In this document: in pieces, positions 156-46,830 of the stretch | Layout: every line of letters begins with the position of its first letter | Numbering within the stretch: the stretch's first letter is position 1 | Source: Bacteroidota bacterium | GTDB taxonomy: Bacteria; Bacteroidota; Bacteroidia; B-17B0; Aurantibacillaceae | Assembly (NCBI GenBank): GCA_018267825.1 | Contig: JAFDXR010000018.1 | Location: 1-64,000 of the forward strand | Direction: 5' to 3' | Length of the DNA: 64,000 bases | Translations under genes and position numbers: made by a program | The notes under the pieces: model-generated | Database searches by the model: none | What the model was told of the DNA's origin: nothing | Seen by the model: only the letters and a program-made list of their open reading frames with translations

Positions 156-2969
156 TTATAATTTTGCTTTGATCTCGATCATTTCGTAACCCTCAATAAT
201 ATCGCCTACTTTGATATCATTAAAGCCATCGATGTTCAGACCGCACTCATAACCTGCTGCCACTTCTTTCACATCGTCTTTGAAACGTTTCAGTGAACCG
301 AGGCCGCCGCTATGAATCACAATACCATCGCGGATCACACGTACTTTGGTGTTACGTGATACTTTTCCGTCGAGCACATAACAACCGGCAATTGTTCCCA
401 CTTTGGTGATATTGAACACCTCACGGATTTCAATATTACACACCACTTTCTCTTCGTACTCAGGCGATAACATACCTTCCATCGCTGCTTTGATCTCGTC
501 GATAGCCTGGTAAATAATCGAGTAGAGGCGGATATCGATTTCTTCTACCTCAGCCAGTTTACGGGCATTGGTGGTAGGTCGTACCTGGAAGCCCACAATG
601 ATGGCGTTGGAAGCAGAGGCGAGCATAACGTCGCTTTCGCTGATAGCACCCACGGATTTATGAATGATGTTCACCGCAATTTTTTCGGTAGAGAGTTTCA
701 GTAACGAATCCGATAAGGCTTCGATAGAACCGTCCACGTCACCTTTCACGATTACATTGAGCTCTTTGAAGTCGCCAATCGCCAAACGACGACCGATCTC
801 ATCGAGTGTAATGTGTTTCTGGGTGCGGATACCCTGTTCGCGTTGTAACTGTAAACGCTTGTTGGCCAGTTCACGGGCTTCGCGTTCGTCGGTCATCACG
901 TTGAATTTATCACCCGCTGTTGGCGAACCGTTTAAACCCAGTAACTGCACCGGAATCGAAGGCCCGGCTTCTTTGATCGGTAAACCGCGTTCGTTGGTCA
1001 TCGCTTTTACGCGACCGCTGTATCCGCCGGCTACCACAATGTCGCCCACTTTCAGAGTTCCTTTTTGTACAATGATATCGGCCACGTGTCCACGACCTTT
1101 ATCCAGTTTGGCTTCGATCACCGAACCGGAAGCACGTACTTTCGGATTGGCTTTCAGATCAAGAATTTCAGCTTCCAGTAATATTTTTTCGAGTAAGAGG
1201 TCGATGTTGAGACCCTGCTTCGCCGAAATCTCCTGCGATTGGTATTTACCACCCCATTCTTCCACCAGGATATTGAGGTTGGCTAAGTCTTCACGGATCT
1301 TATTCGGGTTGGCACCCGGTTTATCAATTTTGTTGATCGCAATGATCATCGGTACACCGGCTGCCTGTGCGTGGTTAATAGCCTCTTTGGTTTGAGGCAT
1401 CACACTGTCGTCGGCCGCTACCACAATAATAACGATGTCGGTTACTTTGGCACCACGGGCACGCATCGCCGTAAAGGCCTCGTGACCAGGTGTATCAAGG
1501 AATGTAATGGATTTACCACCATCCAGTTTCACATTGTAACTACCAATGTGCTGCGTGATACCACCGGCTTCACCGGCTACCACGTTGGCTTTACGGATGT
1601 AGTCGAGGAGCGATGTTTTACCGTGGTCAACGTGACCCATGATGGTCACAATCGGCGGACGTGAAACAATATCCTCTTCTTTTTCTTCTTCTTTTTCTTC
1701 AATAGCTTCTACAGCTTCCACCGTTACGAATTCGGTTTTGAATCCAAACTCTTCAGCCACAATGGCAATGGTTTCGGCATCCAGACGCTGGTTAATGGAT
1801 ACGAACAGGCCTAAGCTCATGCAGGTTGAAATAACCTGTGTTACCGGCACATTCATCATCGATGCCAGCTGGTTGGCCGATACGAACTCAGTTACCTTCA
1901 GTACGCTTTTTTCTGCTTCGAGCTGTTCCTGCTCTTCAGCCATACGCTCACGTACCACATCACGTTTATCACGACGGTTTTTCGATGTTTTCGATTTGGC
2001 ACCTTTGGCACTGAGACGTGCCAGGGTTTCCTTGATCTGTGCCTGAATTTCTTCATCCGTCAGAGCCGGGCGGCTTTCACGTTTGTCGGTTTTCTTGGCA
2101 CGCGGATCACCGTATTTTTCTTTGGCGCGGTCTTTTGCAATCTGGGCCTGCTCTTTACCTACTTTCTTGATTTCCTCTTCACTGAGCCCGCCTTTGCGGA
2201 TCCGCTTACGTTTCTTTTTATCGGCGGCACTACCCGGACCGTTAGAAGAAGCTACAGGCTTTTTATTATCTTTTACTACAGGTAATTCAATTTTACCCAT
2301 AATCTTAGGCCCCTCCAGTTTCTGGTACTGGGTTTCCATGAACTCTTCTTTTTTCTCTTCCACTTCCGGAACCACAGGTTCTACCGGAGTTTCAGCCACC
2401 GGTTCTGCCACCGGCACTTCTTCCTCTTTCTTTTTCTTGCCTTTTGCAGCTTTGCCGTCTTTAGACTCTTCGGTATCAACCGGCTCCTTTTTCGATTTTT
2501 TATCGGGTTTTGTTTTCTGGTTCAGCGACGCGAGGTCTACTTTTCCCAGAACCTTAGGCCCATCGAGGGTAGGAGAGGGTGTCTCTTTTTTAACCTCTTC
2601 TGTTTTTTCAACCTGAACTTCCGGTGCTTTTTCTTCGGTGACGGTTTTCGGAACAGACAGGTCTTTGATAATGATCTCTTCCTGCTGCTTGGCTTTTTCC
2701 TCTTTCTGTTTAGCCTTCACATCTTCAAGCACGATGGTTTCGCGCTTTATTTTGTTGATGTTCAGGGTTACATTCTGAGCTTCTTCTTTTGCGGACTTAT
2801 CGCTCGAAAATTCCCGCGACAGCAAGGCATACTCTTCAGCGCCTATCTTAGCGTTGGGGTTATTTTCTACGGGGCGACCTTTAGAGGCCAGGAATTCAAC
2901 AATCTTGGTTAAAGACTGGTTAAACTCTTTGGCCGCTTTGCTTAATCGCATTTGTGTTGCGTCTGACAT
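156..2969 (-). CDS. infB: Translation initiation factor IF-2
   Basis: GTPase that delivers initiator fMet-tRNA to the 30S subunit and promotes subunit joining. The protein has 937 residues. The first ~350 are low-complexity, rich in Lys and Glu, as usual for the variable IF-2 N-terminus and longer than in many phyla. A short IF2_N-like segment precedes the G domain, where G1 ([13 protein letters not shown]), G3 (DTPGHEAF) and G4 (NKID) are all present, followed by the beta-barrel and C-terminal domains. Bacteroidota IF-2 proteins are typically of about this size. It is the last gene of the leftward rimP-nusA-infB operon; the nusA-infB gap is about 90 bp. No sign of damage. Confidence 0.98.
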
Positions 2970-3061
2970 ATTTATAAATTCCTCTCGGTCTTTTTTGTTT
3001 CCTGTTTCAAATATGCCTTTTTCGCAAAGAAGGCTAACTTTTTCCTACACAGCACATGATC

Positions 3062-4321
3062 TTAATCTTCAAACTCGGCCTGCAGAACACCGCGTACCTG
3101 GGCGATAACATCTTCGCTCAGACCTGTACGACGGATCAGTTCATCGGGTTTCAGTTCCAGTACAGAACGTGCTGTATCGCAACCAATGGATTTGAGTTCG
3201 TCAATGATAGCCTCATCGATTTCATCAGAGAATTCATCCAGGTCAACGTCATCCACGCTGTCAACTTCGTCGGTATCGCGGAACACATCGATGTCGTAAC
3301 CGGTTAATTTACCGGCCAGTTTAATATTAAATCCACCCTTACCAATGGCCAGTGAAATCTGGTCTGGTTTCAGGAACACCTCTGCACGTTTGGTTTCATC
3401 ATCAATTTTGATCGATGTGATTTTAGCCGGGCTCAGGGAACGCTGAATCAACAGGGATGGATTGGCTGTATAGTTGATAACGTCAATGTTTTCATTTTTA
3501 AGCTCGCGCACGATACCATGAATACGGGAACCCTTCATACCTACGCAGGCTCCAACCGGATCAATACGGTCGTCGTAAGATTCAACGGCTACTTTGGCAC
3601 GCTCACCCGGTTCGCGAACAATTTTCTTGATGGTGATCAGCCCGTCAAATACTTCAGGCACTTCCATTTCGAATAAACGCTCAAGGAATGAAGGGGATGT
3701 ACGCGACACGATAATAGACGGCGTACCGTTTTTCATGTCTACTTTATATACTACGGCTTTTACAGTATCGCCTTTTTTGAAGAAATCGGTCGGGATCTGT
3801 TCTGTTTTTGGCAACAACAGTTCATTGCCTTCGTCGTCCAGGAGCATGATTTCTTTTTTCCATACCTGGTAAACTTCGGCGTTGATAATGTCGCCCACTT
3901 TTTCTTTATACTTGTTGTAAATCTCGTTCTTTTCGAGTTCCAGTACTTTCTGAACCAGGTTCTGGCGTACCGATAATACGTTACGGCGGCCAATTTCTTC
4001 CAGTTTCACCAGTTCCGATACGTCTTCGCCGATCTCGAAATCAGGCTCCACTTTACGGGCTTCTGTTAAACTGATGTGTTTATTAGGGTCGTAATCAAAT
4101 GAATCTTCAGCAAACTCGTCGTCTACAATACGGCGGTTTTTCCAGATTTCAATATCCCCTTTATCCGGGTTTACGATAATATCGAAGTTTTTATCCGAAC
4201 CATATTTTTTGGTGAGCATGGTGCGGAACACGTCCTCAATAATGCTCATCAAGGTTGCTTTATCAACATTCTTGATCTCTTTAAATTCCGAGAATGATTC
4301 GATTAAATTTACACTTTCCAT
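3062..4321 (-). CDS. nusA: Transcription termination/antitermination factor NusA
   Basis: RNA polymerase-binding factor controlling pausing, intrinsic termination and antitermination. The 419 residues contain the N-terminal RNAP-binding domain, an S1 domain (about 135-200) and two KH domains; the NusA signature GACVGMKGSRI lies in the first KH and IAIGKGGFNIKLA in the second. The C-terminus is acidic and ends with a helix-hairpin-helix-like tail (LIRRTGLSEDVIAQVRG). The protein is shorter than E. coli NusA because the two C-terminal acidic repeats are missing, as expected outside Proteobacteria. It follows rimP by 17 bp. NusA is known in E. coli to control its own operon, which makes the leader hairpin upstream of rimP notable. 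Confidence 0.97.
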   Translation of the reverse strand: MESVNLIESFSEFKEIKNVDKATLMSIIEDVFRTMLTKKYGSDKNFDIIVNPDKGDIEIWKNRRIVDDEFAEDSFDYDPNKHISLTEARKVEPDFEIGEDVSELVKLEEIGRRNVLSVRQNLVQKVLELEKNEIYNKYKEKVGDIINAEVYQVWKKEIMLLDDEGNELLLPKTEQIPTDFFKKGDTVKAVVYKVDMKNGTPSIIVSRTSPSFLERLFEMEVPEVFDGLITIKKIVREPGERAKVAVESYDDRIDPVGACVGMKGSRIHGIVRELKNENIDVINYTANPSLLIQRSLSPAKITSIKIDDETKRAEVFLKPDQISLAIGKGGFNIKLAGKLTGYDIDVFRDTDEVDSVDDVDLDEFSDEIDEAIIDELKSIGCDTARSVLELKPDELIRRTGLSEDVIAQVRGVLQAEFED

Positions 4322-4338
4322 TGTATTTACTTTTTGAA

Positions 4339-4803
4339 TTAAAACGGTAAAACTGATTTTGTTTCTTTAAGTTGTTTGTATGTTAAGGTTATGTTTTCAA
4401 TAACTGTTTGTTTTCCTTTGCCTACCGCTTTATTTTCGCGGCGGCTGGTTTCGATGGTAATGCCGTCATCGTCGGCCGCCAGCAGCTTGCCCTTATAGCT
4501 TTGCCCGTCGAGGGTATGTGCTTCGACCTGGCTGCCGGTATATTTTTTGAACTGCCCGATCACCTTAAAGGGTTCGGTAGCCCCCGGCGAAGACACCTCC
4601 AGCGAAAAATCTTCCTGGTCGCGGTCGAGGCTTCCTTCAATATGGCGGCTCAGGTTCACGCAATCGGCAATCGACAGGCCGCCACTCGCATCGATAAACA
4701 CCTCAATTTTATTGCCAGGCAATACATTTACGTCGACAATAAACTTATCTGAATCTTTCAGAAAGTCTTCGGCCAGGCTTATTATGTGTTGTTTGGTAAT
4801 CAT
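4339..4803 (-). CDS. rimP: Ribosome maturation factor RimP
   Basis: Cytoplasmic factor for 30S subunit maturation. The 154-residue product has the N-terminal alpha/beta domain with the conserved SRHIEGSLDRD and LEVSSPG segments and the C-terminal SH3-like barrel (YTGSQVEAHTLDGQSYKGKL). The ATG at 4803 is preferred over a TTG three codons upstream because it gives the normal MITKQ-like start. It is the first gene of rimP-nusA-infB, the order conserved across bacteria. Confidence 0.95.
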   Translation of the reverse strand: MITKQHIISLAEDFLKDSDKFIVDVNVLPGNKIEVFIDASGGLSIADCVNLSRHIEGSLDRDQEDFSLEVSSPGATEPFKVIGQFKKYTGSQVEAHTLDGQSYKGKLLAADDDGITIETSRRENKAVGKGKQTVIENITLTYKQLKETKSVLPF

Positions 4804-4817
4804 TTTTGCCAATAAAA

Positions 4818-4837
4818 AAGGGACTTCTTAGTCCCTT
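4818..4837 (-). terminator. Terminator-like hairpin in the rimP leader (possible attenuator)
   Basis: On the minus strand AAGGGACT-AAGA-AGTCCCTT forms a perfect 8-bp stem with a 4-nt loop followed directly by TTTTATT. It lies 14 bases upstream of the rimP ATG and downstream of the predicted promoter, so it sits inside the leader of the operon it precedes. No minus-strand gene upstream needs it as a terminator. Attenuation is inferred from position. Confidence 0.7.
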
Positions 4838-4865
4838 CATTTTTCTATCATCAAATTTGCGGTTA

Positions 4866-4897
4866 CAAATATATAACATTCTTTTTTAAAAACCAAA
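4866..4897 (-). promoter_or_regulatory. Promoter of rimP-nusA-infB
   Basis: On the minus strand a -33 TTTG (4897-4894) is followed after 20 bases by the -7 element TATATTTG (4873-4866), matching the Bacteroidota consensus TTTG-N(19-23)-TAnnTTTG. Transcription would start near 4860, giving a leader of about 55 nt that contains the 4818-4837 hairpin. Confidence 0.7.
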
Positions 4898-4947
4898 AGA
4901 AATTTGTGCAACAAAAGCCCCCTGCAGTCGTTTAATATAACAGACTC

Positions 4948-5018
4948 CCCGCAACTTGTTCTAAGTTAAACCAGCGGGTTTTTAGCTCTTCTCTTCCCCC
5001 CGGAGATCTCCTAAGAGC
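4948..5018 (+). promoter_or_regulatory. Structured leader upstream of the His-rich small protein
   Basis: Two inverted repeats lie in the 100 bases before the gene at 5039. The first pairs CCCGC with GCGGG (4948-4952 / 4974-4978), with an inner AACTT/AAGTT pair, and is followed by TTTTT. The second pairs GCTCTT with AAGAGC (4985-4990 / 5013-5018) and encloses the palindrome GGAGATCTCC. The first resembles an intrinsic terminator although no plus-strand gene lies upstream. Function unknown. Confidence 0.4.
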
Positions 5019-5038
5019 CCGCATAAATTGAAATACAT

Positions 5039-5359
5039 ATGAAAACGATGCAAAAATCAGGGACTCAGGGTGGCAAATTACTTCTTTTAGCTGCTTTTAT
5101 GTTGATGGGATTTCACTCGGTAGCAGCCGATGGAAAAATCTCGAAGGCCTTTTTTAATGACTTTATGGGTAGTGGCAGTGTAGGATTCTATATTATCGGT
5201 GGAATCCTGGTTGGTGGAATCGTCCTCCACATCATTGTAAACCACATGATCAAGCCCAAAGACGAGGAGTCAAAACGCAGCCAAATGCCAGCTTCTCATC
5301 AGAATCATCATCACCGGCATCACCATCATCCCCACCGCGTAGTTAAAAAAACCTCCTGA
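5039..5359 (+). CDS. Small membrane protein with His-rich tail, unknown function
   Basis: The 106-residue product is not assigned to a family. It has an N-terminal signal-like hydrophobic segment (about 13-30, ending near SVAADG), a second hydrophobic, glycine-rich helix (about 48-68, GFYIIGGILVGGIVLHIIV), and a charged tail ending in a cluster of about ten histidines (HQNHHHRHHHHPHR). This predicts an inner-membrane protein with a soluble metal-binding-type tail. It stands alone, is preceded by a structured leader, and is followed by a strong terminator, so it is probably transcribed monocistronically. Coding confidence rests on the organised hydrophobic/charged layout and clean flanking signals. 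Confidence 0.75.
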   Translation: MKTMQKSGTQGGKLLLLAAFMLMGFHSVAADGKISKAFFNDFMGSGSVGFYIIGGILVGGIVLHIIVNHMIKPKDEESKRSQMPASHQNHHHRHHHHPHRVVKKTS

Positions 5360-5407
5360 AATGAGGGTTTTAACCACCGGCAAACCGGGGCTTCTATGAT
5401 ACGACAG

Positions 5408-5464
5408 TCCTTTTGTAAATTAATTTGTTGAAAAGCAATTAATTACAAAAGGGCTTTTTTTTTT
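5408..5464 (+). terminator. Strong intrinsic terminator
   Basis: CCTTTTGTAAATTAATT pairs with AATTAATTACAAAAGG (one bulge) around a loop of about 11 nt, followed by C and a run of ten T. It ends the transcript of the 5039-5359 gene and separates it from the acpP promoter. Confidence 0.88.
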
Positions 5465-5491
5465 GTTTTTTAGCTCATAAACTTATCTTTG
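5463..5491 (+). promoter_or_regulatory. acpP-fabF-rnc promoter
   Basis: The -7 element TATCTTTG (5484-5491) matches TAnnTTTG, with TTG at 5463-5465 about 18 bases upstream as the -33 element. It predicts a leader of about 20 nt before the acpP ATG at 5518. Confidence 0.65.
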
Positions 5492-5517
5492 TCCCGAATT
5501 TTAAAAACATAAACACA

Positions 5518-5757
5518 ATGTCAGACATTACAACAAAAGTGAAATCTATTATTGTAGATAAATTAGGTGTTGAAGAAAAAGAAGTGACTCCAACTGCCAG
5601 CTTTACCAACGACTTAGGCGCGGATTCATTAGATACAGTAGAACTCATCATGGAATTCGAAAAAGAGTTTAACATCGCGATCCCTGATGATCAGGCTGAA
5701 AAAATTGCTACAGTAGGTGATGCTATCGCTTACATTGAAGCAAACGCTAAAAACTAA
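5518..5757 (+). CDS. acpP: Acyl carrier protein (fatty acid synthesis)
   Basis: The 79-residue carrier shuttles acyl intermediates on a 4'-phosphopantetheine arm. The attachment motif [10 protein letters not shown] is present with Ser37 as the modified residue, inside the usual acidic four-helix fold. It is followed 30 bp later by fabF, the classic acpP-fabF arrangement, and has its own promoter and upstream terminator. It is the housekeeping carrier, distinct from the second ACP at 21042-21299. Confidence 0.97.
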
Positions 5758-5787
5758 TCAAGGTACTCTTTTCTTAAAAAATCGATC

Positions 5788-7041
5788 ATGCAATTTAAGC
5801 GCGTAGTAGTTACGGGACTTGGAGCTGTTACTCCATTGGGCAATAACGTTAATGATTATTGGACTAATCTGGTAGCAGGTAAAAGCGGTGCCGCACCTAT
5901 TACGCGTTTTGACGCAACTAAATTTAAAACCCGTTTTGCCTGCGAGGTAAAGGGATTTAAACTGGAAGATTATTTCGATCGCAAAGAAGCTCAGCGTCTC
6001 GATGCATTCAGTCATTACGGTATTGCCGCCTCTGTGCAGGCTGTTGCCGATGCTGGTCTCGAAGCCGAAGGCATCGACCGCAACGAAATAGGCGTGATCT
6101 GGGGTTCCGGTATCGGTGGATTAGACACATTTCAGGCGGAAACATTCAATTTTGGCCGCGGCGATGGAACACCACGTTTCAACCCGTTCTTTATCCCGAA
6201 AATGATCGCTGATATATGCTCCGGGCATATCTCCATGCGTTTCGGATTCAGGGGGCCAAACTTCACAACCGTTTCTGCGTGTGCCTCATCAACTTCTGCC
6301 CTCATCGATGCATTTACCTATATCCGACTGGGTAAGGCCAATGCCATTGTAACGGGTGGTTCCGAAGCAGCCATTAATGAAAGCGGTATCGGTGGATTTA
6401 ACGCCTGCCAGGCGATGAGTCTCCGTAACGACAGCCCTGAAACAGCTTCGCGTCCGTACGATAAAGATCGTGATGGATTTGTACTGGGTGAAGGTGGCGT
6501 TGCCCTTGTACTCGAAGAACTTGACCACGCCCTCGCGAGAGGTGCAAAAATTTATGCCGAGGTAATCGGCGGTGGCATGAGTGGTGATGCCTACCATATT
6601 ACCGCTCCGCATCCCGAAGGACTCGGCGCCACACTCGTGATGAAGCGTGCCCTCAAAGATGCCGGCATTTCAGCGGATGCCGTGGATTACATCAACACAC
6701 ACGGAACAAGTACTCCTCTCGGCGACCTGGCCGAACTAAAAGCCATTACCAACGTATTTGGCGATCAGGCTTACAAAATGAATATCAGTTCCACCAAATC
6801 GATGACCGGCCACTTACTCGGTGCTGCCGGCGCTATCGAGGCCATGGCAACGGTACTGACTGTTCAGAACGATATCGTTCCTCCCACCATCAACAACTTT
6901 ACACCGGATCCTGAACTGGACCCGAACCTGAACCTGACTTTCAACAAAGCTCAGAAACGCACGGTAAATGTAGCCATCAGCAATACCTTCGGGTTTGGAG
7001 GGCACAATGCCGCTGTGGTGGTGAGAAAATATAAAGCCTAA
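5788..7041 (+). CDS. fabF: 3-oxoacyl-ACP synthase II
   Basis: Elongating condensing enzyme of type II fatty acid synthesis. The 417-residue sequence has the full Cys-His-His triad: Cys165 (VSACASSTS), His305 (NTHGTSTP) and His342 (SMTGHLLGAAG), plus the late-domain glycine-rich FGFGGHNA. Length is normal for FabF. It lies between acpP and rnc, an order common in Bacteroidota. It serves as the reference for judging the divergent ketosynthases at 18.8-23.1 kb. Confidence 0.97.
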   Translation: MQFKRVVVTGLGAVTPLGNNVNDYWTNLVAGKSGAAPITRFDATKFKTRFACEVKGFKLEDYFDRKEAQRLDAFSHYGIAASVQAVADAGLEAEGIDRNEIGVIWGSGIGGLDTFQAETFNFGRGDGTPRFNPFFIPKMIADICSGHISMRFGFRGPNFTTVSACASSTSALIDAFTYIRLGKANAIVTGGSEAAINESGIGGFNACQAMSLRNDSPETASRPYDKDRDGFVLGEGGVALVLEELDHALARGAKIYAEVIGGGMSGDAYHITAPHPEGLGATLVMKRALKDAGISADAVDYINTHGTSTPLGDLAELKAITNVFGDQAYKMNISSTKSMTGHLLGAAGAIEAMATVLTVQNDIVPPTINNFTPDPELDPNLNLTFNKAQKRTVNVAISNTFGFGGHNAAVVVRKYKA

Positions 7042-7052
7042 AAAGAAGTGTA

Positions 7053-7787
7053 TTGATAAAAATTTTATCATCCTTTCAATTTACCGACAAAGAAAACAAA
7101 GCCTTTAAACAAGGGCTCAAACAACTATTGGGCTTTAGTCCTAAAAATCTTTCACTTTACCACCAGGCATTCAGGCACAGCAGCTCCAAAAACATCCGGC
7201 AGAATCATCTTAAAAGCAACGAGCGCCTCGAGTTTCTGGGCGACGCCGTATTGGGGGTGGTGATTGCCGATTACCTGTTTAAGCTATACCCATACGAAGA
7301 TGAAGGTTTCCTGACCCAACTGCGCTCGCGGATTGTAAACGGACAGGTGATCACCTCACTGGCACAGAAATTCGGGCTCGATACCTATCTGCAAAGCGAT
7401 CTGAGCAAAAAAGAAAAAGTAAAGTCCTCAGCCTATGGCGATGCCTTTGAAGCATTGGTGGGTGCTATATACCTCGACAAGGGATTTGAAACCACCAGGA
7501 AATTCCTGATCGAGCGGGTGATTTCGATTCATGTGGATGTGAAGAAACTGCAAGCCGTGGATACCGATTATAAAAGCCAGTTGCAGATCATGATGCAGCG
7601 TCAGCGCCGTAAATTTGAATACAGGCTGGTAAGCGAAGTGCACAACGGCAAAGAAAAAATATATAAGATCCAGGTGTTTATTGAAAACAAACCATTTGCA
7701 GAGTTTCAGCATTATTCGAAACGCGTGGCCGAACAAAAGGCCGCACAGCTTACCCTCGAAATGCTGGAGCAAACGGAGAAACCATGA
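7053..7787 (+). CDS. rnc: Ribonuclease III
   Basis: Endonuclease for double-stranded RNA in rRNA and mRNA processing. The 244-residue product has the RNase III signature NERLEFLGDAVL and the second catalytic cluster (AYGDAFEALVGAIYLDKG), followed by a C-terminal dsRNA-binding domain from about residue 168. The only in-frame start near fabF is TTG at 7053, 11 bp after the fabF stop; an ATG start would remove the conserved N-terminal helix. The next gene overlaps by 4 bp (ATGA), suggesting translational coupling. Confidence 0.96.
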   Translation: MIKILSSFQFTDKENKAFKQGLKQLLGFSPKNLSLYHQAFRHSSSKNIRQNHLKSNERLEFLGDAVLGVVIADYLFKLYPYEDEGFLTQLRSRIVNGQVITSLAQKFGLDTYLQSDLSKKEKVKSSAYGDAFEALVGAIYLDKGFETTRKFLIERVISIHVDVKKLQAVDTDYKSQLQIMMQRQRRKFEYRLVSEVHNGKEKIYKIQVFIENKPFAEFQHYSKRVAEQKAAQLTLEMLEQTEKP

Positions 7788-8281
7788 AACGCTATACCCT
7801 CGATACTCCGGGCGAAGAGGTGTTCGATTTTGACATCATTGGCATATCATGTCCCGAAAGTCATTACAAGGTTATATACGAAATCAATACGCTGCTGAGC
7901 ATCGACCTGAGTCTTGAAACCTACCTCGAATACACGCATAAGGAAGGCAACGAATTTTTGTTTCCGCTCTACCAGTTTATCGACGAAGCCCTGTGCGTGG
8001 AATATAACCTTATTCCGAACCTCACCTCCTATCAGCCGCCCCGGCTGCGCAACAAACAGGTAAGCCAGGACCTCTTTATGGGTGAAGTAGAGGAGTCGGC
8101 ACGCCTGTTGCCGGAACTCGACAATACCGATTATTTCTTTATGCTCAAGGGCCAGAACCGTTATATGTATTATCATGCGGTATATGAGCAAATGCGCAAG
8201 AGTCGCGTATTTACAGCCATTCAGGAGATTTATGTGGAAGATATCCGCGACAAGAAAGCGCGCGGGAACCTGTTGTTTTAA
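7784..8281 (+). CDS. IPExxxVDY-like small protein, unknown function
   Basis: The 165-residue product has no recognisable catalytic motif. Position directly after rnc, size and the C-terminal segment IQEIYVEDI resemble the Bacteroidota-specific IPExxxVDY family, which is commonly found next to rnc; the motif is degenerate here, so the assignment is tentative. No signal peptide or membrane helix is seen, so it is probably cytosolic. It overlaps rnc by 4 bp and is probably cotranslated with it. Confidence 0.8.
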   Translation: MKRYTLDTPGEEVFDFDIIGISCPESHYKVIYEINTLLSIDLSLETYLEYTHKEGNEFLFPLYQFIDEALCVEYNLIPNLTSYQPPRLRNKQVSQDLFMGEVEESARLLPELDNTDYFFMLKGQNRYMYYHAVYEQMRKSRVFTAIQEIYVEDIRDKKARGNLLF

Positions 8282-8800
8282 AGCGGAATAGGGGGAAACA
8301 GAAAGGCTATATAAATTATAAAGGCAAGCACAATAATGGAGCTTTGTCATGTCGAGCCTGTCGAGACATCTCTGTTGGTATGGGTGTTATTAGATTCCTC
8401 CGCTCCGCGTGTCGCTGAGGCTTATGCTTGCGCTGAAGCTTCAGCATAGGCGCTACGGTCGGAATGATAAAACTGCGTTGTTCCTTTGGTTGTGAAGGCA
8501 AACGCAGTGATGGAAGGTTCTGATCTGCGTGAATCTGCGCGTCCCCAACCAGCGATTATCTGTGTGCAAAGTTTCTCGCTGATTTTCGCTCAAGGAGACA
8601 TTCTCTTCACCTGAGGGAAGTAATTCTGCATCGTTTGTTGTATTCGGCTAGCCGGGGAATATACCCTGAAGAACATTCCCTTAAGGAAAAAAGGATGAAG
8701 TAAAAATGAAAAGTAAAGAGTTCTGATGAGCACAGATTTGGGCGATACATTGTCTGGTAGAATCAGCGAAATCTGTGGTTAAACACGACTTACAAAAAAC
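8282..8800. repeat. Non-coding gap with degenerate intergenic repeats
   Basis: About 520 bp between two convergent genes with no credible gene. It contains ATGTCGAGCCTGTCGAGACAT (8347-8367 region), a hairpin made of TATGCT/AGCATA around the 14-bp palindrome GCTGAAGCTTCAGC (8432-8445), and decayed copies of the phrase 'gatctgcgtgaatctgcg' (about 8520-8540) that builds the arrays at 23.6 kb and 34.5 kb. It looks like remnants of dispersed intergenic repeat families. Confidence 0.6.
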
Positions 8801-9658
8801 TTAGAACTTATAATCCTTGTAGGTAGTGGTAAACTCCTCGTCTTCAATTTTTGGGTTTACCTGCAGGAAGAAGTAATTGTATTCTTCAAACAAGCCTTTG
8901 TCGTCATTGATTTTGACGCCGATAGGCAGGAAGTAAAACTGATCAATATACATGGTTACATCTTTGGCATAAGCCGTAGGAACCTTTATTTTCTGGCCCA
9001 CTTCCAGGATATCGAAATAGTCTTTGAGTTTGGGATTGTTTTCTACGATCATATACTCGGCCACATGGAGTTTGCGGGCAATACTGGTAATACTCTCATT
9101 ATTACCAACAGTATAAGTTACAAAAGCAAAATCTTTATTGGTGATGGTGACTTTGTAACAAGCGCGGTTATTATAACGTTCCTCGCCTTCGAGTTTGAAG
9201 TATTGATCAAACTTGTCGCCTACCTTTATATCGGTATATTCAATAATACTTCCGAAGTAGTCGAAACCCATTTCACTGAGCGTATGATGCTGATCCTGGC
9301 GCATCAGCGAGCCATGAGGGTCGAGGTTGAGGTTGACATACGGAAATGAGTTTGGCTTCACATAGGCTTTCCCGTTATTCCAGCCTTGTTTCCAGATCAG
9401 TTCAATTCCTTTGATGTAAACGTATATTTTGCGGGGTTTGCGGTTCAGCTTTACCGCCGATTCATAATGGTTGTATCCTTTTTTACCGCGCTCGGTAATT
9501 TTCAGGTTATATTTCAGTCGCTCTACTTCACCGATCGATTTGATCATTTTATGAACGATCTCTTTGCATGTCATGGCTGGTTTTTGCGAAAAAGCCCTGG
9601 AGGCCGGCAAAACAAGGAGAAGAGCAAGGAGGCAGGTATAAAAACGGCTTTTAAACAT
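8801..9658 (-). CDS. DUF1571-type secreted protein with an internal LysM domain
   Basis: The 285-residue product starts with a signal peptide (cleavage near ASRAFSQ). The first ~165 residues match the DUF1571 layout (MTCKEIVHKMIKSIGEVERLKYN start, repeated Tyr/Lys-rich strands, a lipoprotein-carrier-like beta fold). A LysM-like segment (about 175-225, with NNESITSIARKLHV and VGQKIKVP) is followed by a return to DUF1571-like sequence (MYIDQFYFLP, KDYKF end). The LysM thus appears inserted within the host domain and would tether it to peptidoglycan. ATG 9658 is chosen over a TTG three codons upstream because it gives a clean signal peptide. Function unknown. Confidence 0.85.
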   Translation of the reverse strand: MFKSRFYTCLLALLLVLPASRAFSQKPAMTCKEIVHKMIKSIGEVERLKYNLKITERGKKGYNHYESAVKLNRKPRKIYVYIKGIELIWKQGWNNGKAYVKPNSFPYVNLNLDPHGSLMRQDQHHTLSEMGFDYFGSIIEYTDIKVGDKFDQYFKLEGEERYNNRACYKVTITNKDFAFVTYTVGNNESITSIARKLHVAEYMIVENNPKLKDYFDILEVGQKIKVPTAYAKDVTMYIDQFYFLPIGVKINDDKGLFEEYNYFFLQVNPKIEDEEFTTTYKDYKF

Positions 9659-38934: not shown

Positions 38935-41793
38935 TTATTCTTTTATCATCTTAACCTGGTATTGTGTGCCATGCTGGCCCAGGGTATGGATAAAATAAAT
39001 TCCATTGGAAAGGTTTTCCAGCTGCAATGCGTGAGAGCCGGCTTCAAACGAAGTATCCATGAGTATTTCACCGAAAATAGTAGTTATCCACACATGACTG
39101 GTTTCTGATACTTCCAGTGTAAATGAACCATGATTTGGATTCGGATATACACGCATTGAAGTAGCCTGTGCCTGTAATGCATCAATGCCAGTACATACCG
39201 ATACCGATTGTGTCACCGTGGTGTAATTGCTGCAGTTGGCTGCACTGGTTCCTATTACCGTGTAGCTTGTTGTTGTTGTTGGATTCACAACCAGGTTTGC
39301 ACCCGTTGCACTGGTGTTCCAGGTATAAGTCGCTGCGCCGCCTGCTGTCAGTGTGGCCGATTGCCCGGCACAAATCATGGTGTTTGAAGAAACAGCGGTG
39401 ACCGTTGGTAATGGATTTACAGTAATGGTTTTCACGGCATAACCCACACAACCGTTTGAACCTGCTACACTGTAACTGGTGGTTACAGAAGGATTCACAC
39501 TGATGGAAGCAGTTGTAGCTCCTGTACTCCAGCTGTATGTTGTGGCTCCAGTTGCTGTAAGCGATACACTCTGGCCATTACAGATGCTGTTACTGCTACT
39601 GCTTATACTGACTACTGGCGCGGCTGTACTGGAGCTGATGCTGAATGTTTGTGTTTTTGTACAGCTGTTTGCATCGGTAATGGTGCAGGTATAATTGGAT
39701 GCGCTTAAACCGGAAGCAGTTGATGCACTGCCGCCCGATGGAGTCCAGTTGTAGGCATAAGGGCTTGTTCCGCCTGTTACAGCCACCTGGGCCTGACCCG
39801 TAGGATTGGCACATGTAATATTGGTTTGGCTTGGGATTGAGGCCAGTGCCGCAGGTTGTGTAATGGTCACCACCTGCGTTTTAGAGCAGTTATTGGCATC
39901 TTTTATTGTACAGGTATAGGTGCCGGCAGATAAACCGGTCGCTGCTGCAGATGTTCCCCCCGCAGGAGTCCAGCTATAACTTAAGGCGCCGGTACCGCCA
40001 CTGGCTGATACGGAAGCCGTAGCGTTCGACAAGCCATTGCAGCTTACATTGGTTTGTGAAGCAATAGACGATGTAATATTGTTGGATGGTTGTGTGATGG
40101 TAACTGTTTGTGTTTTTGTACAACTGTTGGCATCCGTGATCGTACATGTATATGTACCTGCCGAAAGACCGGTTGCAGTTGAAGCTGTGCCACCTGATGG
40201 GGCCCAGTTATAGGAATATGGACTCGTTCCACCGCTGGCGCTGATACTGGCAGCACCATTATTGGTCACTGTGCAGGAAGTAATATTGGTTTGTGAACTT
40301 ATGCTTGAAACGATCGCTGTGGGTTGTGTGAGCGTTACCGATTGTGTTTGTGTACAACCGTGCGCATCTGTTACGGTGCAGGTATACGATCCTGCAGTAA
40401 GTCCGCTGGCTGTTGAAGCGGTTCCGCCGGCAGGACTCCAGTTGTATGTATAGGGGATTGTTCCACCCGTAGCCCCGATGCTTGCAGAGCCGTTGGCACC
40501 GCCGTTGCAGCCCACATTTGTTTTCGACGATACGGTGGTTGTTACGGCTGTAGGTTGTGTAATGGTAATGCTTTGCGTTTTGCTGCAGTTATTGGCATCT
40601 TTTACGGTGCAGGTATAATTGCCCGCTGCGAGTCCTGTAGCAGCAGCCGATGTTCCGCCGGATGGAGTCCAGCTGTATGTAAAGGCTCCCGTGCCACCGC
40701 TTGCAGCTATGCTTGCGGCGCCATTCGATAATCCGTTGCAACTGATGTTGGTTTGCGAGGGCGTGGCTGTAATAGCGCCTGGTTGTGTAATGGTAAATGT
40801 TTTGGTGCTTGTACAGCTGTTGGCGTCTTTAATGGTACAGGTGTAGTTTCCTGCCGCTAAGCCGGCAGCTGTTGCAGCTGTGCCTCCCGATGGGGTCCAG
40901 CTGTAAGTCAGTGCGCCCGTTCCGCCGGTGGCTGCAACGGATGCTGCGCCATTGGTTCCGGCATTACAGGTCGTGTTGGTTTGCGATGAAGTAGCAGTAA
41001 TGGCTGTAGGTTGGGTAATGGTAATTGTTTTGGAAGTTGCACAGTTGTTGGCGTCCTTTACGGTGCAGGTATAGGCTCCTGCACTTAAACCGCTGGCTGT
41101 AGCCGATGTTCCGCCCGATGGCACCCAGCTGTAGGTAAGTGTACCTGTTCCGCCACCGGCAGCAATGGTAGCGGCGCCATTGGTTCCGGCATTACAGCTT
41201 ACATTGGTCTGCGACGTGATGGTGCTCGTCATGGCGCATGGTGTGCCACTGCTGAGCGTATAAGTCTTCGTTGTATTTTTTGTAGCATCACCACTGGTAC
41301 TGCCGTTATTGTTACCCACAAGAAAAGCAGCGTAGAATGTAACTGTTGTAGGTGTACTTGTGGCCGGAGCTGTCCATGAGAATGTCCAGCTTTTGCTGGT
41401 GCCGGTTCCCGGAGTGGAATGTGTTACAAAGTGACTGGTGGTAATCAGCTTGGCACCTGTTCCAGGAGCAGAGAGTGTTCCAAGAAATGCACCTGCTGTA
41501 TTTTCACAGGCCACCTCAAAACCGTAGTTATTGGAGGAGCTTCCGGAAATGGAAACGGTAAAATTATACGTTGTTCCGGCTACATAGCCACTGGCTGGTA
41601 TGTTGGAAGTAATGGTTCCGCCGCTGGCGGCTGTACCACTGTGGCAATCTGTACAGTTACCACCATCTCCGGGCGAACCTGTAGAATAGGAGGGCGCACC
41701 GTTAGAGCTGGCATGCCCGTCGTTGCCGGTTGTAAACAGCACGGCACTTCCGATAACAGTTATTACAGCAACAAGTGAAAGAATTTTTTTCAT
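38935..41793 (-). CDS. Large SprB-repeat T9SS cargo protein with N-terminal CxxCH domain
   Basis: The 952-residue product has a signal peptide, then a Reelin-like/choice-of-anchor-V domain (about 30-180) with a heme-type motif NCTDCHSG. Next come seven repeats of about 70 residues (roughly 190-680), each with a TNxxCxxxxNG start, GGTxxYxYxWxPSGG and a closing TxTQP, typical of SprB repeats in adhesins. Two Ig-like units follow (about 690-850). The C-terminus is a type A T9SS sorting domain (MRVYPNPNHGSFTLEV to VKMIKE). It should be a cell-surface adhesin or motility-associated protein. Confidence 0.92.
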   Translation of the reverse strand: MKKILSLVAVITVIGSAVLFTTGNDGHASSNGAPSYSTGSPGDGGNCTDCHSGTAASGGTITSNIPASGYVAGTTYNFTVSISGSSSNNYGFEVACENTAGAFLGTLSAPGTGAKLITTSHFVTHSTPGTGTSKSWTFSWTAPATSTPTTVTFYAAFLVGNNNGSTSGDATKNTTKTYTLSSGTPCAMTSTITSQTNVSCNAGTNGAATIAAGGGTGTLTYSWVPSGGTSATASGLSAGAYTCTVKDANNCATSKTITITQPTAITATSSQTNTTCNAGTNGAASVAATGGTGALTYSWTPSGGTAATAAGLAAGNYTCTIKDANSCTSTKTFTITQPGAITATPSQTNISCNGLSNGAASIAASGGTGAFTYSWTPSGGTSAAATGLAAGNYTCTVKDANNCSKTQSITITQPTAVTTTVSSKTNVGCNGGANGSASIGATGGTIPYTYNWSPAGGTASTASGLTAGSYTCTVTDAHGCTQTQSVTLTQPTAIVSSISSQTNITSCTVTNNGAASISASGGTSPYSYNWAPSGGTASTATGLSAGTYTCTITDANSCTKTQTVTITQPSNNITSSIASQTNVSCNGLSNATASVSASGGTGALSYSWTPAGGTSAAATGLSAGTYTCTIKDANNCSKTQVVTITQPAALASIPSQTNITCANPTGQAQVAVTGGTSPYAYNWTPSGGSASTASGLSASNYTCTITDANSCTKTQTFSISSSTAAPVVSISSSSNSICNGQSVSLTATGATTYSWSTGATTASISVNPSVTTSYSVAGSNGCVGYAVKTITVNPLPTVTAVSSNTMICAGQSATLTAGGAATYTWNTSATGANLVVNPTTTTSYTVIGTSAANCSNYTTVTQSVSVCTGIDALQAQATSMRVYPNPNHGSFTLEVSETSHVWITTIFGEILMDTSFEAGSHALQLENLSNGIYFIHTLGQHGTQYQVKMIKE
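39700..41200 (-). repeat. Seven SprB-type coding repeats
   Basis: Inside the cargo gene, seven ~70-codon units repeat with related but non-identical DNA (e.g. 'gcatctttt' and 'gtgcaggtata' recur). Closely matching neighbours (units 2, 3 and 6) suggest recent duplication or conversion. Boundaries are approximate. Confidence 0.75.
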
Positions 41794-43098: not shown

Positions 43099-44685
43099 AT
43101 GATCAAAGAACTACAATTGGTGGTATCACCACAGACAGCCTTCACGGAGGCATTGCTCAAGTCGCATGTTTTAAACGAACTGGGACTTTCCACTCACGAT
43201 ACCTTTACCATCGAAACACTGAGGCGCAGTATTGATGCCCGTGGCCGCAATATTAAAATCAATGTAAAGGTCAGGGCCTATATCAATGAGTTGCCACAGG
43301 AACAAACGTATGAACCACCATACAAAACAACAGGACCACATTCAAAAACAGTGACCATCATCGGTGCAGGTCCTGCGGGACTTTTCGCTGCGCTGCAATG
43401 CCTCGAACTCGGCTACAAGCCTGTTGTGTTTGAACGTGGCAAGGATGTACAGGCCCGCCGCCGCGACCTGGCCGCCATTAACAAGGAACATATTGTGAAT
43501 CCCGAAAGTAATTATTGCTTCGGTGAAGGTGGTGCAGGCACATACAGTGACGGCAAGCTATACACGCGATCCAATAAACGCGGTGATATTGAGCATGTAC
43601 TCAGGACGTTTGTGTATCACGGCGCATCCGGTGAGATTCTGGTTGACGCGCATCCGCATATCGGCACCAATAAGCTACCCAACATCATCGTGAATATGCG
43701 TGAAACGATCCGGCAATATGGCGGTGAAATTCACTTCGGACATAGGCTCGCAGACCTGGTGCAGAAAAAAGGTAAGATAACAGCTGTATTGGTTCAGAAC
43801 CAGGAAACGGGCCATATGACAGAGCATGCCTGCGAGCAATTGATTCTGGCTACAGGACATTCAGCACGCGACATTTACGAATTACTGCATCGCAAAAATA
43901 TCCTCGTTGAGGCAAAACCGTTTGCCATGGGCGTGCGTGCAGAGCATCCGCAAAGCATCATCGACAGCATTCAGTATCATTGCGGCAGTCTGCAGGAGCT
44001 AACCGAGAAACGTCAGTATCTGCCGGCGGCTTCGTACTCGCTGGTGCACCAGGTCAATGGCTATGGTGTCTATTCATTCTGCATGTGTCCGGGAGGCATT
44101 ATTGCACCATGCGCTACAGGCCCCGAGCAGGTAGTCACCAATGGCTGGTCGCCCTCCAAACGTAATAACCCTTATGCCAACAGTGGTATTGTGGTCGGGC
44201 TCGAACTTCGCGACTTTGAGATGTATAAACAATTCGGACCACTGGCCGGTCTGGAATTTCAGAAGCAACTCGAGAAACAGGCCTGGCTGATGGGCGGGCA
44301 AACACAAACTGCTCCGGCGCAGCGTCTGCAGGATTTCGTAAACAATAAAACAAGCAATGACCTGCCCGATTGTTCATATCAGCCCGGATTGAAACCGGTA
44401 GCCATGAACCAGGTACTCGGTAAACTTATAGGACAGTCGTTACAACAGGGTTTCAAAGCCTTCGGGCAGAAAATGCGTGGTTATCTCACCAACGAGGCCT
44501 TGATTGTGGGCGTTGAAAGCCGCACCTCTACGCCGGTCCGTATTCCCCGCGATAAAGACACGCTGCTGCATCCGGAGCTATCGAATCTATACCCCTGTGC
44601 TGAAGGAGCCGGTTATGCCGGTGGTATCATGAGTGCAGCCATGGACGGTATTAATTGTGTAAAAGCGATTCACAAGGGTGGCTAA
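43099..44685 (+). CDS. NAD(P)/FAD-dependent oxidoreductase (COG2509 type)
   Basis: The 528-residue product has an N-terminal ~80-residue domain, a Rossmann FAD motif GAGPAGLFAAL, and the family signatures GEGGAGTYSDGKLYTR, ATGHSARDIYELL and EGAGYAGGIMSAAMDG. COG2509 proteins are uncharacterised FAD-dependent dehydrogenases; no substrate is known to me. It follows porT by 36 bp and may be cotranscribed. A hairpin follows the gene. Confidence 0.92.
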   Translation: MIKELQLVVSPQTAFTEALLKSHVLNELGLSTHDTFTIETLRRSIDARGRNIKINVKVRAYINELPQEQTYEPPYKTTGPHSKTVTIIGAGPAGLFAALQCLELGYKPVVFERGKDVQARRRDLAAINKEHIVNPESNYCFGEGGAGTYSDGKLYTRSNKRGDIEHVLRTFVYHGASGEILVDAHPHIGTNKLPNIIVNMRETIRQYGGEIHFGHRLADLVQKKGKITAVLVQNQETGHMTEHACEQLILATGHSARDIYELLHRKNILVEAKPFAMGVRAEHPQSIIDSIQYHCGSLQELTEKRQYLPAASYSLVHQVNGYGVYSFCMCPGGIIAPCATGPEQVVTNGWSPSKRNNPYANSGIVVGLELRDFEMYKQFGPLAGLEFQKQLEKQAWLMGGQTQTAPAQRLQDFVNNKTSNDLPDCSYQPGLKPVAMNQVLGKLIGQSLQQGFKAFGQKMRGYLTNEALIVGVESRTSTPVRIPRDKDTLLHPELSNLYPCAEGAGYAGGIMSAAMDGINCVKAIHKGG

Positions 44686-44709
44686 TAGGCTAAATTTCAG
44701 TTATTAGCC
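44680..44709 (+). terminator. Possible terminator after the FAD oxidoreductase
   Basis: GGCTAATA (44680-44687) pairs with TATTAGCC (44702-44709), overlapping the stop codon, followed by TTAATTCTT. The stem is AT-rich and the T-tract is broken. It marks the left border of the AT-rich defence-like pair. Confidence 0.45.
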
Positions 44710-44765
44710 TTAATTCTTCCGATATAGGAAACAATTTGGTTATTTTTACTTAAATAAACATAAAG

Positions 44766-46175
44766 ATGATCACAAAAATAGAAATAGATGGATTTAAGAC
44801 ATTTAGTGATTTCAAAATGGAATTTGCGCCACTTACTGTTATTGCTGGGGCAAATGCTTCAGGAAAAAGTAACCTGTTTGATGCGATGCTTTTGCTTTCA
44901 AGAATAGTTGAAGTTGATCTAAAAACTGCATTTAGTGAGCAGAGAGGCGAGGCAAATGAGTTATTCACTCAGTTTTCCCAAAAGGAGAATGCAGAAGAGA
45001 TATTTTTTGGAGTAGAATTATTAATTGATAAAAGTATCAAAGATAAGTTTGGTGGGGAAACTCGACTAAAATATACTAGGCTTAGATATGAAGTTAAAAT
45101 CCAAAAAATAACTAATGAGAGGAACGTAGATGATCTAGTCATTGTTCATGAGAGTCTTAATCCAATAAGACATAATGATGATATATGGATAAGAACATAT
45201 GTGCCAAGTAACTGTATAGAATATTGGAGACCTAAAGTTAAAAGTGGGAAAAGGGGGGTTGCATATATTGATACTGACAATAATAGAGCTATTAGTCTAA
45301 GACAAGATGGTACAGGTGGTGTAAAGAAGGAGTATCCATTAAATAAAATTCATCAAGCAATTATAAGCGTTGTTAATTCTATTGATTTCCCACATGCCTT
45401 AGCTGCAAAAGAAGAGATTAAGGGGTGGAAATTCCTACAACTTAATCCAGAGGAATTAAGAAAGCCAAGTTCATATTTGGCAAAAGACTATTTAACCCAT
45501 ACGGGGCAAAATCTTGCTGCTACACTACATCGAATAAAGACAGAAGATCCACTATTTATAAAGGACATCTCCAGAAGACTAAACTCTTTATTGCCAAGTA
45601 TTAATGATGTTGATGTTATTGATGACAAGGTTGGAAAACAATTTGTAATACAAATAAAGACAACCGATGGTCGGGAATTTACATCTAGGGTATTATCAGA
45701 AGGGACACTTAGATTACTGACTTTGTGTGTATTTCTATTTGACCCCCAACATAGGGGACTGATTTGTTTTGAAGAACCAGAGAATGGAATACACCCTGCG
45801 CGATTGAAAATGATGACAGAACTTCTACGGGACCTGGTTTCTGAATTTACGGATCCAAACTCCGAATTAAGACAAGTTATAGTAAATACACACTCTCCAG
45901 TACTTGTAGGTGATATATTTAATCACGAAAGCAATGCTCTTTCTCAGATTTGGTTTTCGGAATTGGTAACGCAAATCAAGCCGTATAATAACAAAAGGTT
46001 AAAAATTCAAACCACAAAAATTATTCCTGTGGTCTATAGTGGCGGAAGTCAAATGACAATCGATTTTTCCGAGAACGAAAAAAAACTTACTGTTGCAAAA
46101 GTTGTGTCATTTTTGCAAACAGGAGACTTTGAAAAAACAATCCTGGAGATTCAGAAGCAAATAGATAATGAGTAA
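44766..46175 (+). CDS. AAA ATPase of the OLD/SMC-like class (probable defence protein)
   Basis: The 469-residue product is an AAA_21-type ATPase: Walker A at 28-36 (GANASGKSN), an ABC-signature-like LSEGTLRLL (310-318), Walker B LICFEE (332-337) with EPENGIHP, and a final VNTHSPVLV (373-381). The layout resembles the ATPase of OLD, AbiL/RloA and PARIS defence systems. The next gene overlaps by 8 bp and encodes a TOPRIM-like protein, as in split OLD-type systems. The DNA is AT-rich compared with its neighbours, suggesting horizontal transfer. An antiviral role is inferred from this architecture. Confidence 0.88.
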   Translation: MITKIEIDGFKTFSDFKMEFAPLTVIAGANASGKSNLFDAMLLLSRIVEVDLKTAFSEQRGEANELFTQFSQKENAEEIFFGVELLIDKSIKDKFGGETRLKYTRLRYEVKIQKITNERNVDDLVIVHESLNPIRHNDDIWIRTYVPSNCIEYWRPKVKSGKRGVAYIDTDNNRAISLRQDGTGGVKKEYPLNKIHQAIISVVNSIDFPHALAAKEEIKGWKFLQLNPEELRKPSSYLAKDYLTHTGQNLAATLHRIKTEDPLFIKDISRRLNSLLPSINDVDVIDDKVGKQFVIQIKTTDGREFTSRVLSEGTLRLLTLCVFLFDPQHRGLICFEEPENGIHPARLKMMTELLRDLVSEFTDPNSELRQVIVNTHSPVLVGDIFNHESNALSQIWFSELVTQIKPYNNKRLKIQTTKIIPVVYSGGSQMTIDFSENEKKLTVAKVVSFLQTGDFEKTILEIQKQIDNE

Positions 46176-46830
46176 TATTATTACAATAGGGTATTCTACA
46201 GAAGGCACAACTGACAGGAGATTTCTTGAGAACGTCATTAAGAATACGTTTGAAGATGTAGCTTTTGACTCTTTAGGAGCCGTTGAGGTTTATGCTCCAA
46301 TTTATATTGATTTTCCAAGGGGAAACTTTAATGAAGCTGTTTTAAAGCTATCTAAAACAGCGGCAGACATTGGCGTATATGTTTTATGTATTCATGTTGA
46401 TGCTGATTCGCAATCAGATCATGAAGTATTCACAAATAAAATAAATCCGGCTATGAAAACAATAGAGCAAGCAATGGGAGATAACTTATGTGATAACATT
46501 GTTGCAATAGTACCAATTCAAATGACAGAATCATGGTTGTTAGCAGATAAGGAGTTGTTTAAAAGAGAAATTGGTACAGGCATGTCTGATAATGATTTGA
46601 AGATTAATAAAGACCCGGAAAGTATTGCAGATCCAAAACAGGTCATAGAGGAAGCATTGAGAATTGCTCAGAATCATCTTCCAAGTAGGAGAAAGAAAAT
46701 TAAAATCGGTGATATATACCAGCCTATTGGACAAAATCTGACAGCTGACAAATTAGGGGCAATGGAGTCATACCGAAAATTTAAAAATGCCGTCATAGAA
46801 GCATTCAGAAGGCTTAACTATTTAACCTAA
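46168..46830 (+). CDS. TOPRIM/DUF4276-like protein (probable nuclease partner)
   Basis: The 220-residue product starts within the ATPase gene (ATGAGTAA overlap). It has TOPRIM-like acidic residues: Glu12 (YSTEGTTDRRFLENVI) and Asp78/Asp80 (CIHVDADS). The later MTESWLLADKELFK segment (Glu121, Trp123) recalls the DUF4276 family. TOPRIM partners in OLD-like systems cut DNA or RNA when activated by the ATPase. The split-gene arrangement predicts the two act together. Family assignment is by eye. Confidence 0.78.
   Translation: MSNIITIGYSTEGTTDRRFLENVIKNTFEDVAFDSLGAVEVYAPIYIDFPRGNFNEAVLKLSKTAADIGVYVLCIHVDADSQSDHEVFTNKINPAMKTIEQAMGDNLCDNIVAIVPIQMTESWLLADKELFKREIGTGMSDNDLKINKDPESIADPKQVIEEALRIAQNHLPSRRKKIKIGDIYQPIGQNLTADKLGAMESYRKFKNAVIEAFRRLNYLT

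Follow-up and report, generated by a model that had tools for sequence, protein, structure and literature searches.

ATPase-TOPRIM modules are recurrent in bacterial immunity, and among their two-gene versions PARIS is, to our knowledge, the one understood in detail. In PARIS, a hexamer of AriA sequesters AriB, and a phage trigger frees an AriB dimer that cleaves host tRNA by two-metal chemistry (PMC12409363). AriA, an OLD-family ABC ATPase, and AriB, a TOPRIM protein of the DUF4435 type, are separate chains, whereas the OLD nucleases (classes 1-3) have ATPase and TOPRIM in one chain, and Gabija has a UvrD-like helicase, GajB, beside GajA. The pairing of separate nucleases with OLD-type ATPases is a known wider theme (PMC12839542), and one of the candidate systems of PADLOC-DB v2 is HEC-01 (HEC, Hma-embedded candidate; PMC12988326), in which an ATPase gene adjoins a DUF4276-type gene.

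The window analysed here, a stretch of 64,000 nucleotides from a Bacteroidota contig (JAFDXR010000018.1), contains two adjacent genes, A and B, that a first-pass annotation had proposed as a split OLD-type defence system. The features of the pair are:

44766..46175, + strand: gene A, OLD/AriA-type ABC ATPase of 469 aa (HEC-01A), putative sensor/regulator
46168..46830, + strand: gene B, DUF4276 TOPRIM-like probable nuclease of 220 aa (HEC-01B), putative effector
46168..46175, + strand: 8 bp shared by the two genes, where A ends and B begins
44847..44873, + strand: Walker A motif GANASGKSN (A residues 28-36), kept in homologs
46201..46203, + strand: codon for B Glu12, corresponding to TOPRIM motif 1
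46399..46407, + strand: codons for B Asp78-x-Asp80, corresponding to TOPRIM motif 2
44686..44765, + strand: AT-rich intergenic stretch upstream of A, with a weak possible hairpin after the upstream gene (z -1.85)

The two overlapping reading frames and the motifs previously read in them were all found in their places: in A, GANASGKS starts at residue 28, LSEGTLRLL at 310, LICFEEPENG at 332 and NTHSP at 374, and B has E12, D78 and D80, with MTESWLLAD from residue 119. The overlap suggests that the genes are translationally coupled. At least 10 further loci carry homologous pairs with the two genes in this order, which puts the reality of the pair far beyond chance; B directly follows A in every complete locus read, and the spacing across 11 loci ranges from -8 to +13 bp (-4 to +13 in the relatives). 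The neighbours of the pair are genes for a FAD protein and an S15 peptidase, and the 64-kb window shows no defence genes adjoining it. Elsewhere in the window, 38935-41793 on the - strand encodes a secreted protein that carries SprB repeats and a Por secretion tail.

Judged by profile matches, the pair is an intact member of HEC-01. Protein A matches PADLOC model PDLC04184 (HEC-01A) with an E-value of 1.6e-136 and 454 bits, over residues 1-453 of 469 and profile positions 1-460 of 464, and B matches PDLC04212 (HEC-01B) at 5e-59 and 198 bits, over profile positions 6-221 of 222. Since both matches are this long and strong, the earlier statement that the pair matches no known system exactly was wrong, and no difference from HEC-01 was seen; identity between the window proteins and those of the nearest complete pairs found is 41-54%. 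The literature searched yielded no experimental work on HEC-01, be it infection, toxicity or nuclease assays, and what the pair has is thus a catalogue name and not a tested mechanism; it is not a new kind of system.

By its sequence, protein A belongs to the OLD/AriA/GajA type of ABC ATPases. It matches Pfam AAA_21/AAA_15, its nearest structures by profile are OLD (6p74), AriA (8ux9) and GajA, and its N-terminus resembles the P-loops of SMC, RecF and Rad50. The PADLOC AriA model, PDLC02980, also matches it (1.1e-33), though HEC-01A fits much better, and the AriA model equals the generic AAA_21 model in length. A further match, to the AbiLi model of PADLOC (6.5e-23), has no counterpart in B, as AbiLii is absent from the 15 PADLOC families listed for B. 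The NCBIfam model of the Mad3 ATPase of MADS scores 170.9 bits, below its 420-bit cut-off, and no MADS operon adjoins the pair. An AlphaFold model of A built from 7 sequences had a pLDDT of 47 and was set aside.

Protein B is probably a TOPRIM protein, an assignment that is well supported though not proven. The earlier description of a DUF4276-like partner with TOPRIM-like residues is supported. B matches Pfam PF14103 (DUF4276) at 5.7e-10. Its AlphaFold (AF2) model, with a pLDDT of 88.5, places E12 after a strand at residues 3-11 and D78xD80 after a strand at 72-76, giving the order b1-E12-a1-b2-a2-b3-D78xD80-a3-b4, which is that of TOPRIM. In profile alignments (hhalign) with OLD-like TOPRIMs, E12 and D78/D80 fall in register, the score against the OLD TOPRIM being 31.5, compared with 19.8 for the best of 150 column shuffles and 31.8, about the same, for a DUF4435 control against the OLD profile. 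Among 11 B homologs, D78 is kept in all 11, E12 in 10 and D80 in 10 (E in one), and E121, W123, D127, P156 and K157 are invariant in all. The first-pass annotation had made its reading depend on a TOPRIM fold in B: the confident model has the TOPRIM order, and the fold search against the PDB was ambiguous. Foldseek against the PDB and viral models gave no match below 1e-3 and no prominent TOPRIM; the best VIA fold matches were PIWI MID domains (Z 9.9), and the OLD TOPRIM 6nk8 (Z 7.0, 172 residues aligned at 5.2 A) ranked below these unrelated domains. Sequence-profile matches of B in the PDB, to disulfide-isomerases, were at chance level and were rejected. The claim that the partner is not of the DUF4435 type held up: neither the Pfam nor the PADLOC library gave an AriB/DUF4435 match for B, and its score against the DUF4435 profile was at noise.

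As a description of layout, "split OLD" stands, whereas membership of OLD, Gabija, PARIS or AbiL either fails or was not shown. The type of ABC ATPase and the TOPRIM-type acidic site are common to the pair, the OLD nucleases and GajA, but the pair is encoded by two ORFs and has no helicase gene beside it. PARIS resembles it in anatomy, with the ATPase and the TOPRIM protein likewise in separate chains, and differs in having AriB/DUF4435 where the window pair has DUF4276. The same genome also has a frame in which a further ABC ATPase is joined to a DUF4435-like domain (C27:379564-379836) and, at C32:412932-413135, an OLD-like TOPRIM gene.

PARIS was taken as the model for the mechanism of the pair, whose anatomy fits the scheme, and the reading we favour, with a probability of roughly 0.6, is by analogy that of a two-gene anti-phage module of the HEC-01 type operating in the manner of PARIS. 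The parts that can be read from the sequence are an OLD-family ABC ATPase, A, and a separate protein, B, with a TOPRIM-type acidic site. An ATP-bound oligomer of A would keep B inactive; upon sensing a phage protein, or a nucleic-acid state made by the phage, A would release B or switch it on. B, as a putative two-metal nuclease, would then cleave nucleic acid of the host; RNA, for instance tRNA, is the most likely target (a substrate guessed from the PARIS precedent), and the cut would stop translation and lead to abortive infection.

The main rival is an OLD/Gabija-like DNA nuclease, that is, a permanent A-B complex that, once activated, would itself nick or cut the DNA of the phage directly, with no release of B and no host RNA target. 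The resemblance of the B profile to OLD-like TOPRIMs and the presence of OLD and GajA among the best structural relatives of A speak for it, as does the fact that OLD enzymes cleave DNA in vitro (PMC10568477), but the two genes are arranged as in PARIS rather than fused in one chain, and the helicase partner is absent; we consider this account unlikely, if the strongest of the competitors to a PARIS-like module.

The composition and distribution of the pair bear on how it came to be where it is. Its G+C, about 0.344-0.349, is that of the lowest 2-kb stretch in the window (the next-lowest elsewhere is 0.407), and against a background of 222 kb of the same genome outside the window, GC3 is 0.26 in A and 0.28 in B, compared with a mean of 0.47 in a sample of 210 genes (z about -2.9 and -2.7). 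The foreign composition claimed at first sight is thus upheld, and the counts given for it, 16 G+C of 60 at 45061-45120 and 33 of 60 at 43381-43440, are exact. No tRNA, integrase or terminal repeats were found at the window pair, and no transposition machinery is visible. The window module probably arrived by horizontal transfer, as a bare cassette of 2.1 kb set between housekeeping genes; these flanking genes lie apart in relatives, so no empty site was seen for this copy. Elsewhere in the genome, a 20-kb stretch (C12:1-20000) with only 35% G+C, several of its genes having a GC3 of 0.21-0.30, is likely a foreign island.

Within a set of 60 genomes, the host's own and 59 relatives, B is present in its own genome only, and a phylum sample of 395 genomes gave four others with a B-like match. 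One of these is a decayed copy, a C-terminal remnant of B at 1297-1857 of locus L010 in a one-contig genome, with no ATPase. B was found on seven genome-contig loci and one phage-collection record, with the ATPase upstream in each. Close relatives of B occur in 5 of 199 genomes of the genus of Flavobacterium filum, where dtd lies directly downstream in all loci read, and rsgA upstream wherever the flank was covered. The rsgA-dtd junction is a recurrent site of the pair (L005, 3591-7130; L007, 3008-6623; L008, 3428-7123; L002, 3610-7128), and rsgA sits beside dtd with no pair between them at 29 of the 30 dtd loci examined in this genus. The stop of B abuts or overlaps the start of dtd, and co-transcription of the pair with this D-aminoacyl-tRNA deacylase gene is therefore possible. 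Different surroundings are seen in other taxa, where the pair is flanked by a Fic-like gene and a toxin-antitoxin-like pair, or precedes a DEAD-box helicase gene or ruvB. The pair is thus a cassette that is often gained or lost. A fixed locus throughout the lineage, which the first-pass annotation had set against a defence role, was found in part: the pair is always beside dtd in Flavobacterium, yet most species of that genus lack it, and other taxa have it at other loci. The L002 contig, labelled Limnohabitans, has the Flavobacterium order DAHP synthase - rsgA - A - B - dtd over 1879-9023; it is probably mis-binned, and transfer across phyla is not claimed.

A simple toxin-antitoxin or addiction module, one that is retained because it secures its own persistence and for which phage defence is not the main role, would suit some of these features: in Pfam, AAA_21 bears the name of a putative AbiEii toxin, AriA is labelled an antitoxin in PDB entries, and the module stands alone, outside any defence island. 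We nevertheless regard it as improbable, given that the pair has no integrase or terminal repeats and that none is on plasmids or clear phage DNA. No relative of B was found in the plasmids or in the viral contigs searched, and the phage-collection record (L013, MT836135.1) was rejected as evidence of phage carriage, since it holds ruvB, flippase-like and thioredoxin-reductase-like genes and looks like Bacteroidota chromosomal DNA. A host DNA-repair or SMC/RecF-type housekeeping pair, which the P-loop resemblance of A might suggest, is very improbable in view of its absence from 59 of 60 genomes near the host and 194 of 199 Flavobacterium genomes, and of its foreign composition.

Substitution rates indicate that A and B are both under purifying selection, with B evolving two to three times faster. 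Among the flavobacterial pairs, identity is 78-91% for A and 62-74% for B, and dN about 0.06-0.16 and 0.16-0.30, with similar, nearly saturated dS; dN/dS in the relatives is roughly 0.04 for A and 0.15 for B, values to be read with dS near saturation in mind. In the L008 copy, B is split into two frames. The rsgA tree strongly supports one topology, and A and B prefer another without rejecting that of rsgA (AU p 0.43 and 0.077), so that descent at the rsgA-dtd site may have been vertical, with loss. Returning to the PARIS-like module, a tentative extension, which we hold at low confidence, is that DUF4276 forms a further family of TOPRIM effectors, beside the C-terminal TOPRIM of OLD and AriB/DUF4435, which an OLD-type ATPase would hold and release and which would cut a different host RNA; the faster nuclease and the conserved ATPase might then reflect an arms race on the side of the effector, with phage tRNAs or inhibitors as possible opponents.

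A compact, intact DUF4276 pair for which active-site residues have been assigned and homologs collected, and which has a chromosomal site in Flavobacterium that is occupied in some genomes and empty in others, offers a direct test case for HEC-01, and if HEC-01 uses the release-and-cut logic of PARIS, one mechanism would cover a catalogued candidate system.
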